Position numbers and translations under genes: made by a program. The notes beneath the pieces are model-generated. The model was not told where the DNA came from. It was given only the letters and a program-made list of their open reading frames with translations, and searched no databases. 64,000 nt of DNA from Sporocytophaga myxococcoides DSM 11118 (GTDB lineage Bacteria > Bacteroidota > Bacteroidia > Cytophagales > Cytophagaceae): contig NZ_AUFX01000013.1 of NCBI RefSeq assembly GCF_000426725.1, positions 1 to 64,000 on the forward strand, written 5' to 3'. The stretch's first letter is position 1. Each line of letters starts with the position of its first letter. Positions 55,822 through 64,000 of the stretch are shown here, one piece after another.

Positions 55822-55949
55822 AGGAACACAATAAAAATTGGTAAGCTCAACCCCACAGTTCTGCCTATCGTGGCAGAGCGTATTCTGGGCTTTTGATGGG
55901 TACGTCTTAAAACACATGCCCACCAAATATTAAGCTTCTAATAAATAAA

Positions 55950-57765: not shown

Positions 57766-58677
57766 ATGATGAAAAAATCAAAAGTATTTTTTTTAGGATT
57801 GCTGGCACTTGTTGTAGCATGTAAACAGAACGATCAAGAAGGTATTCTGCCAAAATCTGATCCGGAGTCTGAAGCTAAAAAAGCTGCTACCTTTAGTGTC
57901 CAGAATCTTGATCAGCACCATTTTTTAGTAAGCTTAACCAATATCAATGCTCTTGACCACACTTTCAAATATTCCAATGGTGAAAGTTCTAAGTCAGTTA
58001 TTGATACGGTATATTTTCCTTTCAAGGGCTCTTATGAAATAACATTGGAAGTACTTACAGCTAATGGAACATCATCTTCTTCAAAGAAGGTAAAAGTGAA
58101 CAAAGATGATGCATCTAATCCTGACCTTAACGACCCTATAGTTAAACTCCTTACAGGAGGACTTCAAGATATCGATGGTAAAACATGGGTTGTTTCTGCA
58201 GCACCATTTCAGTCGGGTATGGGACCTTTTAATACATTAACACCTGACTGGTACAATTTTCCTGAAGGTTTAATCGGTTTTGCTTGGGAAAATGGTATAC
58301 TTCAAAATTCCTTTACATTTAATTTAAGAAATTACCAATACACTCCTAAAAATACCTCGGTTACTGTTCACTATGCTTATGCCAACAGATATTTTGGGAC
58401 TTCTCAACCTATGTATGGCGATATTGCCTTATCGGATCCGGATCATGTGCAAGCACCATTCACGGTTAAAAATGCACATACTGGTATAGGAACCGGCTAT
58501 ACAATTGATATAGCCAATAACAGTTACATCGGCTATTGTGAAAAACGCAATCATTATGAGATTGTAAGTATCACTAATGATACTCTTCGTATAAGAAACC
58601 CTTATAGTGATGACGCTTATACAGACCCTTCCAATGATGTAGGGGTAAGATACTTTACACTTGTAGCAAAGCATTAA
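57766..58677 (+). CDS. Lipoprotein with PKD-like domain
   Basis: This 303-residue protein has a lipoprotein signal (ALVVACKQND, Cys 19), followed by an Asp/Glu-rich stretch typical of surface lipoproteins in Bacteroidota. A PKD/Ig-like domain (about 40-120; YSNGESSK, FKGSYEITLEVLTANG) and a larger C-terminal beta-sandwich-like domain (about 140-300) follow. The layout resembles the lipoproteins of polysaccharide-uptake loci, but no SusC/SusD genes are near. It is likely on the outer membrane surface and binds glycan; that role is inference. Confidence 0.7.
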   Translation: MMKKSKVFFLGLLALVVACKQNDQEGILPKSDPESEAKKAATFSVQNLDQHHFLVSLTNINALDHTFKYSNGESSKSVIDTVYFPFKGSYEITLEVLTANGTSSSSKKVKVNKDDASNPDLNDPIVKLLTGGLQDIDGKTWVVSAAPFQSGMGPFNTLTPDWYNFPEGLIGFAWENGILQNSFTFNLRNYQYTPKNTSVTVHYAYANRYFGTSQPMYGDIALSDPDHVQAPFTVKNAHTGIGTGYTIDIANNSYIGYCEKRNHYEIVSITNDTLRIRNPYSDDAYTDPSNDVGVRYFTLVAKH

Positions 58678-58705
58678 TTGATAACAATATTATGCTATTA
58701 ATAGA

Positions 58706-58735
58706 ATGGCTTGCGTTTGCAAGCCATCTTTTTTT
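58706..58735 (+). terminator. Intrinsic terminator of the lipoprotein gene
   Basis: ATGGCTTGC pairs perfectly with GCAAGCCAT around GTTT and is followed by C and a run of eight T. Confidence 0.95.
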
Positions 58736-58929
58736 TCAGGACAACTATATCTTTTAATACTTTCTCTTTCACAGATTGCATAGCTAAAAAGTAATTGTAG
58801 CTATTTTCTTAAAAAAGTTTACCCTGCTTTACCAATACATTTTTTATTCAATTCCGAAAAAGCTAGAGACAAGCCTTCATATCTGGAATTCATTTATGTA
58901 AATTTCACATTCTTGACTGAGAATTTCTT

Positions 58930-59195
58930 TTTCCTTTTCAGGATTTTAAACTCCTATATAGGAAGTTCAATTTTATATGTAGCTATTTCTTATTTCTATG
59001 TAGGAATTTCTTTTTCCTATGTGGGAATTTCTTTTTCCCATATAGGAATTTCATTTTCCTATATAGGAATTTCTTTTTTCCACATAGGAATTATCGATTC
59101 CTATGTAGGAATTTCTTTTTCCTATATAGGAATTGTCTTTTCCTATGCAGGAATTTCTTTTTCCTGAATAGGAATAGCTTTTTCCTAATTAAGGT
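58930..59195. repeat. Array of 12-13 palindromes at exact 21-bp spacing
   Basis: Palindromic 14-mers of the form TTCCTATATAGGAA start at 58951, 58993, 59014, 59035, 59056, 59077, 59098, 59119, 59140, 59161 and 59182. Degenerate units sit in register at 58930 and 58972. The linker between them is mostly TTTCTTT. Spacing never departs from 21 bp, so all sites lie on one face of B-DNA. The array lies between a terminator and the FnIII gene. It could be a phased binding array or a minisatellite. Confidence 0.9.
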
Positions 59196-59473
59196 TTTAA
59201 ATAATCAAGAATATGATGTATACTTTTTAGAGTTCAACTGAGAGAAAGCATTATTAATATATAAATTGATTTTGTCGTAGAAATCTTTAATTCTTATTTA
59301 ATTTCTATTTTTTCTTATTTAGTAGTAAAGTCTGTTTACCATACAGAACAAATCATAAAATCAACTGATATTTAATTACATGTACAAAATTTTTTTGAGA
59401 AATTTCTTGCTTTTGATTCATGATATATAAATTTTTATCTCAACATTTTTTTAAACATCAAAAACATACAGCT

Positions 59474-60109
59474 ATGTCCAGCACCAAAAAAGCCAAGGTT
59501 AAGCTTAACCTTAAAGGTTCTACTCTAGAAGAAAAGCTTATTCTATCAAGACAAATATTACAGGCACTTACAGAAAATGAACAGTTTCCATCCCCCATTC
59601 CAACGCTGGAGACATTATCTGCTGCAATAGTGGAACTGGATAAAGCAAATGCAGATTTAAAACAATCCCGTCAAGCTGTTTCAACCAACCTTAGTATTTT
59701 AAAGGATAAATCTATAGAACTTAATTCTGTACTAAATCAACTGGCTGCTTATGTAGAATGCACTGCAAAGGGAGATGAGATCAAAATTAAACAAGCAGGT
59801 ATGAATATAAAAGCTCAAAAGACTTCCTCCGGAATTCCTTCTGCACCGGAGAACTTGCAGGCTGTTGCAGCCAATGAAAAGGAAATAGAACTTTCCTGGG
59901 AATCTGTAAAGCATGCTAAAAGTTATGTTGTACAACTTACTTCTGACTTGAGCAAAGATGATAACTGGAGCATAGCCATTATTTCTACCAAGTCCAAAGC
60001 CACAATAAAGAATCTGGAAAGTGGAAAAAAATATTGGTTTAAAGTTGCAGCAATAGCATCGGCTGGTCAGAGCGCATGGAGCGATCCGACAACCAAATAT
60101 GCTATTTAA
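59474..60109 (+). CDS. FnIII-domain cytosolic protein of the terpenoid-like cluster
   Basis: This 211-residue protein is started at ATG 59474; an upstream in-frame ATG at 59420 gives a poor extension. It has a helical N-terminal region (about 15-110; TLEEKLILSRQILQAL, ADLKQSRQAVSTNLSIL) and a C-terminal fibronectin type III domain (about 118-211; PENLQAVAANEKEIELSW, YVVQLTS, GKKYWFKVAAI, SAWSDPTT). No signal peptide is seen, unusual for an FnIII protein. It is the first gene after the palindrome array and 130 bases before the HEIIH gene. Its role is unknown; a scaffold is one guess. Confidence 0.75.
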   Translation: MSSTKKAKVKLNLKGSTLEEKLILSRQILQALTENEQFPSPIPTLETLSAAIVELDKANADLKQSRQAVSTNLSILKDKSIELNSVLNQLAAYVECTAKGDEIKIKQAGMNIKAQKTSSGIPSAPENLQAVAANEKEIELSWESVKHAKSYVVQLTSDLSKDDNWSIAIISTKSKATIKNLESGKKYWFKVAAIASAGQSAWSDPTTKYAI

Positions 60110-60239
60110 TCAGCATGTGCAGATTTCTGCTTATCTCTCATAAGTTATGTCCTTGCGGGGATGGTATTAGGCGGAGGTGTATGGATAGATGTAAAATTAA
60201 AATTAATCTTTTTTATAAACCTTTAAACCAAATAAAGCT

Positions 60240-60863
60240 ATGCCAAAATGGAAAACACGCAAGGAAGGTGGTTCCTGGGTCGGAGGAGGAACTGAAATTG
60301 AAACTTGCAATATACAAATGAAAAATGCGATTACTGCTGCATTTAACCAGATCAATACCCATCCCAGTGTTGGTTGCTTTCCTACACTTGCCCTTAACCT
60401 CGTCACACTATGGGGCAATGGTGACGGTGAAGGATCTCTTCTGATAGATTGTGGGGATACAGGATGCAACGGAAATGAGGGTGCAAGCACATCTCCACCA
60501 CCTCTTAGAATATTTGCTGCAGGAGAGTTGAAAATATGTACCAGAGAGCCTAGCAGAATAGGTCCTGTTTTAATTCATGAAATTATACATGTTACAGGAG
60601 GCACTAAGCTTGATTCCAAAGCTGCGGAACATGCCATTTTTGCAGGCAATGGCGCGCTCCTTCCCACAGCCGATGAATGGAACCAGATTGTAGCACAAAC
60701 TAAGCCAGGGGAAGATCTTCAGGTGAGAATAGGTAAATATGTCATTTATGATGCCAGGACCGGAGAAATTTTCTCCAACGAACGTGACCAGAGAGGCGCA
60801 CGCTGCTTTCAGAGCAATGATTGGATAAGAACCTTGAATACTGGCAGTGGAAGTTGGGTATAG
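60240..60863 (+). CDS. HEIIH-motif zincin-like protein, Cys-rich
   Basis: This 207-residue protein carries a zincin-type motif HEIIH at residues 113-117, preceded by VLI and followed by a candidate third ligand, E130 (AAEHAIF). It has six cysteines (C23, C46, C71, C76, C100 and one near 183), many for a protein without a signal peptide. A Ser/Pro-rich linker (STSPPPLR) divides it. The spacing between the first motif and E130 is short for gluzincins, so metal binding is likely but peptidase activity is not shown. It overlaps the next gene by 17 bases, which indicates translational coupling. Confidence 0.7.
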   Translation: MPKWKTRKEGGSWVGGGTEIETCNIQMKNAITAAFNQINTHPSVGCFPTLALNLVTLWGNGDGEGSLLIDCGDTGCNGNEGASTSPPPLRIFAAGELKICTREPSRIGPVLIHEIIHVTGGTKLDSKAAEHAIFAGNGALLPTADEWNQIVAQTKPGEDLQVRIGKYVIYDARTGEIFSNERDQRGARCFQSNDWIRTLNTGSGSWV

Positions 60864-61869
60864 CATATCGAAAGCAGAGCAATTTCTCTTTTCTTCGACT
60901 GGAAAGTTCAGTTTATGGAATGACTTTCACACACTGGCCGGAAAAAGTTCTGAATGGGTAAGCTGTTATGTATTGTCTGCACTTCTTTCCCAACCGATGG
61001 CTAAGAAAGAATGGATGAATGATATGCAGATTAAATTAAATCTGCTAAAACTCCGTGATTTCCTGAGAGTACCCAAGGGATATAATTTTAAAGTACCAGC
61101 AGATGCTGATTCATCTGCATGGTACCTTTCTGTATTAACTCAGGTTGGAAGTCCAAAAAACAATGACCGGATTGACAAGCTTATCTGCTTCCTGAACAAG
61201 CACAGAACAAGCGATGGAGGTTTCTCTACTTTTCATTCAGGTTCTCCTATCCGGAACTTTATTAAAGCGAGTCCTCTTCATAATATGGATGGCTGGCAGC
61301 AATCACATGCTTGTGTTGCACCTTTTGTAATCATGTTGCTTTCAGATAAAGAGCGAGGATCACAAGAATATATTCTCCGCAATCAGAAACAGGATGGTTA
61401 CTGGGCATCTTATTGGTGGACGGATGATTTGTATTCTACTTTTTTAAATGTTCAATGTCTCGCATCTCTGTTTCCGGAAGAAGAGAAAGCCATTGCAAAA
61501 GGAAAAGACTGGTGCAGGAGGCAGTTTGTAAATGATAGTTATATAGCCAATTTTAAATTTCCTTTTGGTTCAGCTTTCACGACAGCATTGGGAATTTCAA
61601 CATTGCTGCAAGGAATTGTTTCGAAAGATGATATTTATATTTCCCGTAAGGCAAGTGAATGGCTTATTGATTCACAATTGTCCGAAGGAAACTGGCAACC
61701 TTCAGCACTGCTGCGCATCCCCTTCCCGGATTGCATTCATCCTGGTAGTATGAATTATTCCGAACAACTAAAGGGCGGTGGAGCATTATGCATAGATGAG
61801 CATACCTTTTTCACGACTGCTACAGTAATGCGGGCGTTAAAGTTATTTCACCAAAGGAATCTCTCATGA
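60847..61869 (+). CDS. Half-size squalene/terpene-cyclase-like alpha-barrel protein
   Basis: This 340-residue protein starts at GTG 60847 inside the preceding gene. It has repeated helix pairs of the prenyltransferase/squalene-oxidase (alpha/alpha-barrel) type: EWVSCYVLSALL (near 36-47), DADSSAWYLSVL (86-97), GGFSTF, the QW-like QKQDGYW and SQLSEGNW, and TTATVMRALKLF. DADSSA aligns with the class II cyclase DxDDTA motif, keeping the two outer Asp but with Ser for the third. Full squalene-hopene cyclases are about 630 residues, so this is a single-domain form. It ends in a 4-base overlap with the next gene. A class II cyclase or an inactive carrier are both possible. Confidence 0.7.
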   Translation: MEVGYSISKAEQFLFSSTGKFSLWNDFHTLAGKSSEWVSCYVLSALLSQPMAKKEWMNDMQIKLNLLKLRDFLRVPKGYNFKVPADADSSAWYLSVLTQVGSPKNNDRIDKLICFLNKHRTSDGGFSTFHSGSPIRNFIKASPLHNMDGWQQSHACVAPFVIMLLSDKERGSQEYILRNQKQDGYWASYWWTDDLYSTFLNVQCLASLFPEEEKAIAKGKDWCRRQFVNDSYIANFKFPFGSAFTTALGISTLLQGIVSKDDIYISRKASEWLIDSQLSEGNWQPSALLRIPFPDCIHPGSMNYSEQLKGGGALCIDEHTFFTTATVMRALKLFHQRNLS

Positions 61870-62816
61870 ACGATATCTATTCCTACAGATCCAAAGCTTA
61901 CAATCTTTTGAACCAATTTCAACTGGTCATGAGTCCTTCTGAGCTGAGAACATTTCATCAGAAAGTGATGGAGTGCGGGAAAAATGAATTCGAATACCTG
62001 ATCAGTGAACTGAACAAAAAAGATCAACTGGTAATGGAGCTCGTTAAGCAAAGACTGGAAAATGAAGGTCTATTGTCATTGGAAGAAGTAATGCAACGTG
62101 TGCTCGGATTCGGATACTTTCAAACAGAAGGTTTTTCTTGCTTATGTAGCAATTTAAACTCCAATAACAAACGGAGATCTTCACTTGGAGCCAGGGCAAA
62201 TTTCATTCTTTCATTCTATGACTTCTTAGTTGACTCGGATTTAATAAGAATAATTGAGGCACATGAATTTGACAATTTGCTTCGAAACAACAAGCCATTC
62301 TATTCACCATTGATTTTATTTTATCGGAAAGAAAATTGCGAAAGGATGATAGAAATGCTGGTAAAAAATTTCAGGGAAGGTGTTTCTGCCTCTTTAAAAG
62401 ATAAGGAGCAGAATGATTTGTTTACTATCATTTTAATGGCATGTAAAATACAGAACAGCATTACCAAACCTGCGAACACTTCTTATGAGAAACTGGAAGA
62501 GAAATCTATCTACCCTTTCTTAATTCTTGCTTATATATCTCAACAAACGCCTCTCCCATCTTCTGTTATCAACTGGGCAAGTGATTTCGGGAGACTGATA
62601 GGTTTAGTAGATGATCTTAGCGACTATGAACTAGACCTGCTTAAAAATTCTCCTAATGGCATATCTGATTGTTTTATGAAAGATAGCCAGGGCATCAGCC
62701 ATTTTGAAGAGAAATTCATAGCCCTTCTCAATCGCCTGTTCAGGACTACCAATCTAACTCCTTCTCCCATATTTACTGCAACTATTAACTCATGGATAAG
62801 CAGTTGGAATATTTGA
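61866..62816 (+). CDS. Putative class I isoprenoid synthase-like enzyme
   Basis: This 316-residue, mostly helical protein has two Asp-rich motifs about 130 residues apart: YDFLVDSD (118-125) and DDLSDYELD (249-257), the latter following GRLIGLV. Two facing Asp clusters that hold magnesium are typical of class I terpene synthases and head-to-head condensing enzymes, and the layout parallels the Bacillus YtpB type. Sequence similarity to a named family is weak, so this is a motif-based assignment. It overlaps the cyclase-like gene by 4 bases (ATGA) and ends the operon. A non-enzymatic helical protein remains possible. Confidence 0.6.
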   Translation: MNDIYSYRSKAYNLLNQFQLVMSPSELRTFHQKVMECGKNEFEYLISELNKKDQLVMELVKQRLENEGLLSLEEVMQRVLGFGYFQTEGFSCLCSNLNSNNKRRSSLGARANFILSFYDFLVDSDLIRIIEAHEFDNLLRNNKPFYSPLILFYRKENCERMIEMLVKNFREGVSASLKDKEQNDLFTIILMACKIQNSITKPANTSYEKLEEKSIYPFLILAYISQQTPLPSSVINWASDFGRLIGLVDDLSDYELDLLKNSPNGISDCFMKDSQGISHFEEKFIALLNRLFRTTNLTPSPIFTATINSWISSWNI

Positions 62817-62891
62817 ATTTCTTATTCACTAGGCCAATCGATTTCAATAGTCCCTGCTTTTAAAACTTTCCTCTTAAACTCTCCTGCACCA

Positions 62892-64000
62892 TTACTCTAT
62901 CACAATCCCAGAAGAGATTTTGAATTCATCACCTTCCACGACAATGACGTAAATACCATTGCCTACTTTTCCGGTTTCAATAGCTTGATCACCTTGTAAA
63001 TTACCTGTTAACTTTACAATTTCTTTTCCGCATAAGTCAAAAAGTGAAATTTTACTGGCACTTAAATCCCCGAGTGATACATATATTTTTTCTCTTGCAG
63101 GATTAGGATAAACCCTTATCTGTGCAGAAGCTGAAAAATCTCCAATTGAAGTTATTATATCTGCTGACTGAAAACTCCACTGTTGATTGTTGTTGTTGGA
63201 AGAATAGTCAGAATACTGTACAACAGGATTGCCATCTGTAAGTTTGCCATCTTTGTTGTCAAGCACTTTTCCGCTCATTCTGTTCATGATCCTGAAATAA
63301 CCATTCCCCATATCAGTGAGCTCCCATTGTTGAGCAAACGTTGTTGGGGCTGCACCATCTTGCACAATCGGATCCAGATTGGTGACCGAATTATCATTAC
63401 TTAAAAACTTTCCATCCAGAGAATTCTTAATAGAATAGTAACCATTTTTCAGATCGGTAATTTCCCAAATCTGGCTTCCTGAATTAGCAGTACCATTCTG
63501 CACAACCTGATCTGCTGAGATGCCATCCAGCACTTTACTACTGGTTCTGTTGACAATCCTATAGGTTTTACCAGATTGAGTTTTTTCGCTTACAGCGGTA
63601 ATTTCCCACAACTGGTTGTTACTATAATTAAATACACCTAACTCTGCATCGGCTCCTGCTGCATTTGATGAACCGAAAATCTGCAGGGCTTTACCCAATG
63701 TATTTACACTTACAAATCTATGGTATCCGTTTCCACAATCAATGATCTGCCATTTCTGATTGTAGGCATCGCTCCAATTGTATTGGATGGCCTTTGCACC
63801 TGCATCTTTTGATGCTCCATTTATATCAATAACTTTTCCGCTTTCAATATTCGTAATTCTAAAAAAAGAAGCTCCCAGATTTTGAATTCTCCAATGCTGA
63901 CTGGCAGTGCCTATATAATTCTGCTGTTGAACAGCGCTTCCGTTTGTACCCAATACTTTTCCTGAATGCTTGGCAGTGATTTTATAAACTCCATTTTGAA
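62892..64000 (-). CDS. Ricin-type lectin repeat protein with T9SS tail, 5' end off window
   Basis: The gene is incomplete: its open frame continues past the right edge, and the lectin sequence (NGVYKITAKHSGKVLG) extends to base 64000. In-window it encodes at least 369 residues, with ricin-type beta-trefoil repeats whose QxW motifs read QHWRI, QKWQI, QLWEI, QIWEI, QQWEL and QQWSF. A T9SS type A tail follows (VYPNPAREKIYV to SGIVIE). The missing N-terminus probably holds the signal peptide and a catalytic domain, often a glycoside hydrolase in such proteins. It converges with the isoprenoid-like operon. Confidence 0.9.
   Translation of the reverse strand, partial: QNGVYKITAKHSGKVLGTNGSAVQQQNYIGTASQHWRIQNLGASFFRITNIESGKVIDINGASKDAGAKAIQYNWSDAYNQKWQIIDCGNGYHRFVSVNTLGKALQIFGSSNAAGADAELGVFNYSNNQLWEITAVSEKTQSGKTYRIVNRTSSKVLDGISADQVVQNGTANSGSQIWEITDLKNGYYSIKNSLDGKFLSNDNSVTNLDPIVQDGAAPTTFAQQWELTDMGNGYFRIMNRMSGKVLDNKDGKLTDGNPVVQYSDYSSNNNNQQWSFQSADIITSIGDFSASAQIRVYPNPAREKIYVSLGDLSASKISLFDLCGKEIVKLTGNLQGDQAIETGKVGNGIYVIVVEGDEFKISSGIVIE

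Follow-up and report, generated by a model that had tools for sequence, protein, structure and literature searches.

Near the end of the stretch analysed here (the window, 64,000 nucleotides of Sporocytophaga myxococcoides DNA), four open reading frames follow one another at 59474-62816. The initial annotation read them as a possible operon of a terpenoid type, in which a half-size protein with a class II cyclase motif is paired with a class I-like protein. What chemistry would such a gene set carry out, and on which acceptor? The features that bear on this question are collected in Table 1.

Table 1. Features of the gene set and its surroundings in the window
Feature	Position	Strand	Evidence and remarks
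fnIII protein P0001	59474..60109	+	fn3 match 1.9e-11; inside insertion; genus-wide repeated stand-alone gene
P0002, 207-aa HExxH protein (HEIIH...D), zincin-like motif	60240..60863	+	homologues in G261, G450
P0003, 340-aa monodomain class II terpene (prenyl) cyclase (predicted), GTG start	60847..61869	+	MstE match; Pfam SQHop_cyclase_C 1.6e-9
P0004, 316-aa putative class I trans-IDS-like prenyltransferase	61866..62816	+	homologues in G261/G450; hhalign to P domains
Inserted segment, ~4.15 kb, contains module + fnIII	58740..62890	.	missing at same site in congener G002

The four frames are present as described, and both reported overlaps, of 17 and 4 bases, join the last three. On sequence grounds these frames are genes and not chance, because the whole length of P0003 can be aligned with an enzyme of solved structure (2e-41) and linked homologues of P0002 and P0004 are found in distant genomes. 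No hydrophobic N-terminus is visible by eye in the four translations. The claim of a single four-gene operon stands for P0002-P0003-P0004, which form the functional set. It does not stand for the fnIII gene, whose family occurs in the genus as multiple stand-alone copies. This gene was rejected as an operon member because further copies occur in unrelated contexts, both elsewhere in the source genome (G000, C21) and in G001 (C6, C8) and G002 (C1, C62).

A tandem array with a 21-bp period, about 8-11 copies long, lies a few hundred bases 5' of fnIII copies in the genus. Such arrays were seen at 58952-59187 in the window and at three other loci (L044 10141-10346, L045 9160-9383 and L046 8961-9139). 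The unit sequence varies between the fnIII copies, and some units are palindromic (TCCTATGTAGGA).

The three genes and the fnIII gene are the cargo of an insertion at an otherwise syntenic site. The flanks at window positions 58739 and 62890 are only 113 bp apart in G002 (L048 4234 and 4120), and therefore about 4.15 kb is inserted in the window relative to that congener. Likewise, the flanks at 55903 and 62876 are only 76 bp apart in G003. None of the 58 relatives searched, three congeners among them, yielded P0002, P0003 or P0004. The source genome is 6.34 Mb in size and belongs to the phylum Bacteroidota. Judging from these comparisons, the insertion of the gene set looks recent. The inserted segment holds no further biosynthetic gene of the kinds looked for (UbiA-type aromatic prenyltransferase, P450 or transporter).

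The clearest member of the set is P0003. Its closest match of known structure is MstE (6sbf; phmmer E 2.3e-41, 31% identity, residues 4-331 of 340), followed by another prenylcyclase (6ij1, 1.6e-30) and by 8pak (1.3e-15) and 8paj. The large squalene-hopene cyclases are matched only weakly, at 1e-4. The DxD motif noticed in the barrel protein is DADS at residues 86-89, and it lies in register with the DADT of MstE (DADTTGW/DADSSAW). The YWW..Y.T and LRIP.P blocks of MstE are retained as well.

MstE is reportedly a monodomain class II terpene cyclase (PDB 6sbb-6sbg; Moosmann et al. 2020), a small-molecule cyclase of cyanobacteria. Squalene/hopene-type cyclases are two-domain proteins of about 620-640 positions. 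Because P0003 matches the monodomain enzyme over its full length, the size that had been called half is the normal size of its group, and the idea of an undescribed half cyclase was rejected. From this alignment P0003 is a full-length monodomain class II terpene cyclase, with a predicted role in the cyclisation of a prenyl chain. It differs from MstE in being coupled to P0004 and P0002. In a plasmid search only two distant relatives of P0003 appeared. One candidate there, on a Streptomyces plasmid (L017), is a larger cyclase adjoining a squalene/phytoene synthase and was put aside as a different arrangement.

Closer to home, a search of 395 Bacteroidota genomes with P0003 gave matches in seven others. 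Five of these seven (L022, L024, L025, L031, L033) are fusion proteins, and a sixth fusion (L055) was found with a fused protein as query. They are about 650 aa long. Their N-terminal domain, called P here, is about 300 aa long and has the motifs DxxxD and DDxxDxxxD; the C-terminal domain, called C, is a P0003-like cyclase with DxD[SD]. Of the remaining matches, L023 is a stand-alone cyclase, and L032 (G154), a 665-aa barrel protein that is not a P+C fusion, was left out. The P domains show weak matches to prenyl synthases (8hdl, 0.0017; PF00348, 0.0046).

The surroundings of the fusions are those of ribosomal peptide clusters. Short leader-type peptides with F.VEELE.R.EM..W or a close form lie near the fusions of L031, L025 and L022, and variants lie near those of L024, L033 and L055. 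Nearby proteases resemble the daptide metalloprotease (M50; 3.5e-39 and 2.3e-40), and SPASM radical SAM enzymes and a radical SAM RiPP maturase are also found. In a small tree, P0003 groups with MstE and apart from the C domains of the fusions, with a support of 92/95 that falls under the 95/80 mark and with long branches.

Some of these loci are of interest in their own right. At L031 5319-6364, six tandem short peptide genes, each with the leader VEELEKRYEM or a close form followed by Trp, lie directly upstream of the fused prenyltransferase-cyclase gene and a daptide-like metalloprotease. By its gene content L031 is apparently a complete terpenoid-RiPP cluster with a precursor family. At L024 4108-6797, the neighbours of the fused gene are a P450 and a radical SAM/SPASM RiPP maturase, and the predicted product is possibly a more heavily modified terpenoid peptide. 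At L056 6909-8528, two Os1348/NHLP-type precursors, which end in KVPWGQT and KVPWS, are directly followed by a P-type class I protein (310 aa, QILDDLLDYEEDL) that stands alone, with no adjoining cyclase.

P0004 is far more elusive, and it has no convincing match in Pfam, NCBIfam or the PDB. Homologues were found in G261 (L006/L018, 20-24% identity) and in G450, a Candidatus Kapaibacterium record (JANWLI010000081.1; L019/L029, 21-25%). A scan of 84,980 species returned the G450 locus alone, and the plasmid search gave no relatives of P0004. Viral contigs yielded no homologues. Relatives of P0004 are thus very rare, with three loci found: the window, G261 and G450. All three members conserve the two Asp-rich motifs that had been pointed out in the last protein. 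These are a FARM-like D119xxxD123 and a SARM-like D249DxxDxxxD257, and their spacing is within the range of about 110-140 residues expected for a trans-IDS-like prenyltransferase.

Evidence for the nature of P0004 comes from a profile comparison between the three family members and seven class I domains, namely the six fused P domains and a stand-alone protein of G549. The hhalign score is 39.5 (E 1.3e-4, probability 54%), against a maximum of 20.5 in 200 column shuffles and 10.4 for the reversed profile. In the extended alignment both Asp motifs of the two groups are in register. A structure prediction from a two-sequence alignment was uninformative (pLDDT 39). The remote profile similarity supports a placement of P0004 as a divergent class I trans-IDS-like enzyme related to the P domain of the Bacteroidota fusions.

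Membership in a narrower class is another matter. A Gln immediately before the SARM is reported as a mark of Trp prenyltransferases. It is present in the P domains of L022, L025, L031, L033 and L055 and in the G549 protein, and it is missing from L024. At this position the P0004, G261 and G450 members have Gly or Ala, and therefore the comparison supports a relation of P0004 to the isoprenoid-synthase fold class and does not support membership among the Trp prenyltransferases. The earlier view that a class II cyclase-like and a class I-like protein are translated together is shared here, and the chemistry is probably that of isoprenoids.

The third protein, P0002, has no match in Pfam, NCBIfam or the PDB and no relatives in the plasmid search. 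In both G261 and G450, a related HExxH protein is encoded no more than a few kb from the gene of the P0004 homologue (hhalign 37.1 and 42.4, shuffle maxima 20.7 and 17.5; single BLASTP comparisons 6e-5 and 1e-6). H113, E114, H117 and D125 are invariant in the three proteins. One of the homologues is weakly SprT-like (0.04). A likeness of HEIIH...GTKLD to M35-type aspzincins had no support in any library and was dropped, and a prediction from a two-sequence alignment was again uninformative (pLDDT 33).

The checks proposed with the initial annotation, gene co-occurrence and motif conservation, came out in its favour. The HExxH protein and P0004 occur together in three of three loci, and the homologues keep the DxD and Asp motifs. 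An HExxH profile run against the 395 genomes matched only the source and G261, the same two that have a well-supported P0004 homologue. Since the neighbourhoods were picked through P0004, this result describes linkage and cannot serve as a blind test of co-occurrence. In two of the three loci, the window and G261, the P0004 family member is adjoined by a cyclase or DxDD barrel. In G261 the gene of a barrel-like protein lies directly upstream, in the same C-then-P order, and its PDLDDT falls on the DxD site in the alignment (score 37.1, against a null maximum of 23.0). In G450 no class II cyclase stands beside the P0004 homologue, and a FAD oxidase gene lies downstream of it.

A family of small proteins with no convincing Pfam match is shared by G261 and G450 and encoded near their P0004 homologues. 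These proteins end in GG[ST]W or GGIW plus xW, and such GG[STI]WxxW-like tails were seen at L020 10395-10907 and 13391-13870 and at L029 6447-6812, 6822-7223 and 8426-8776.

A known system offers a model for how these parts could work together. ChrPC (Hubrich et al. 2024), as outlined in a 2026 review (PMC13290415), is a RiPP prenyltransferase-cyclase fusion of the P+C type. According to this outline, its trans-IDS-like P domain prenylates a Trp of a ribosomal peptide with C10-C20 donors, and the C domain then cyclises the chain. NctPC, another P+C fusion with an MstE-like C domain, also acts on Trp (PMC13290415). The module resembles ChrPC in having a trans-IDS-like P part and an MstE-like C part. 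The word "ChrPC-like" rests here on architecture and context, because the sequence of ChrPC was not itself compared. There are also clear differences. ChrPC is one fused protein, whereas the window has two genes with C before P. ChrPC-type clusters contain a leader peptide, an M50 protease and a radical SAM enzyme, whereas the module contains none of these and has an HExxH protein instead. Finally, the Gln before the SARM of the ChrPC type is missing from P0004.

PalQ and ComQ provide a second comparison. PalQ uses D89/D93 and D200/D204 (PMC10853753), which are comparable to D119/D123 and D249/D253 of P0004 when set side by side by description, and the fold is presumed to be the same. The acceptor of these enzymes is a Trp near the peptide end. 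Unlike the module, they have no cyclase partner, and they carry the conserved Gln that P0004 lacks.

The reading preferred here, to which an even chance is given, is that P0002-P0003-P0004 represent a split P and C pair with an HExxH protein, by which a prenyl chain is put on a polypeptide and then cyclised. By analogy with the families concerned, P0004 would use Mg2+ bound at D119/D123 and D249-D257 to ionise a prenyl diphosphate of C10-C20 length, and would hand the prenyl group to a nucleophile. The DxD aspartate of P0003 would then protonate the distal alkene and close the rings, as ChrPC does on the Trp of its peptide. The acceptor is the least certain step. P0002 contains EGGSWVGG near its N-terminus and ends in GSGSWV, so that the Trp of either the C-terminal ...GSGSWV or the N-terminal GGSW would be a candidate site. 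Alternatively, P0002 could be a soluble protease in place of the M50 protease of the fusion clusters. In sequence terms, P0002 may thus be an acceptor protein or a maturation protease. Points against the preferred reading are the remoteness of the profile similarity that links P0004 to the P domains, the Gly or Ala before the SARM, the lack of a VEELE-type leader in the insertion and the G450 locus, where the P0004 homologue has no class II cyclase next to it.

Another explanation is a small terpenoid or meroterpenoid as the product of P0004 and P0003, which would prenylate or cyclise a small molecule, with P0002 unrelated or accessory. The grouping of P0003 with the small-molecule cyclase MstE and not with the fusion C domains speaks for this, as do the missing Gln and the FAD oxidase adjoining the G450 homologue, a usual tailoring enzyme. 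So does the lack of a leader: among the small ORFs in window 58600-60300 and 62700-63000, there is no VEELE-type or other short leader precursor. However, the insertion carries no other biosynthetic gene, the HExxH protein accompanies P0004 in all three loci, and the relatives of P0003 in Bacteroidota lie mostly in peptide clusters. A small-molecule product is therefore considered somewhat unlikely.

The module might also have arrived with a recent insertion as cargo that is decaying or has no function, given its absence from 58 relatives, including three congeners, and its location in the insertion. Against this, the three frames are intact with tight overlaps, and the residues of the DxD, FARM-like, SARM-like and HExxH motifs are kept in proteins whose identity to their relatives is otherwise 18-31%, which makes decay improbable.

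The initial annotation had compared the pair with YtpB (DUF2600) and a squalene/hopene-type cyclase of Bacillus, which is likewise a class I and class II pair. The YtpB system uses a two-domain cyclase and PF10776, whereas P0003 is monodomain; PF10776 has no match in P0004 or anywhere in the genome, although the Bacillus subtilis control is matched. The P+C fusions that accompany RiPP precursors are nearer relatives. A Bacillus-like route, in which a long acyclic or monocyclic terpene from P0004 would be cyclised by P0003 to a membrane terpenoid, would suit a class I-like and a class II protein translated together, but with PF10776 unmatched and P0003 far nearer the monodomain group (2e-41) than the two-domain cyclases (1e-4), it is most improbable.

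Returning to the split pair that modifies a polypeptide, one lead toward its acceptor is the abundance of Gly-rich segments with Trp. Nine [GS]G[STI]W segments occur in proteins of the three P0004 loci, where the frequency in the rest of the window and in nine other loci predicts 0.33. The small p-value of this count overstates the case because the motif was chosen after it had been seen, most hits fall in one small-protein family and several of the nine are paralogues. A more specific version of the proposal is that P0004 prenylates the whole folded P0002 on the Trp of a Gly-rich segment (GSGSW-V or GGSW), as well as small GG[ST]W-tailed proteins in related loci, and that P0003 makes a polycyclic terpenoid of the chain. 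This version is speculative and unlikely as it stands. If it were true, the module would represent a bacterial modification for protein anchoring, carried out by paired class I and class II terpene enzymes.

Terpene-ringed peptides from prenyltransferase-cyclase fusions were described only in 2024. The module suggests that the same chemistry may also exist as separate enzymes, outside leader-peptide clusters. It further suggests that this chemistry may involve a very diverged prenyltransferase that domain libraries miss, with a full protein as its possible acceptor.
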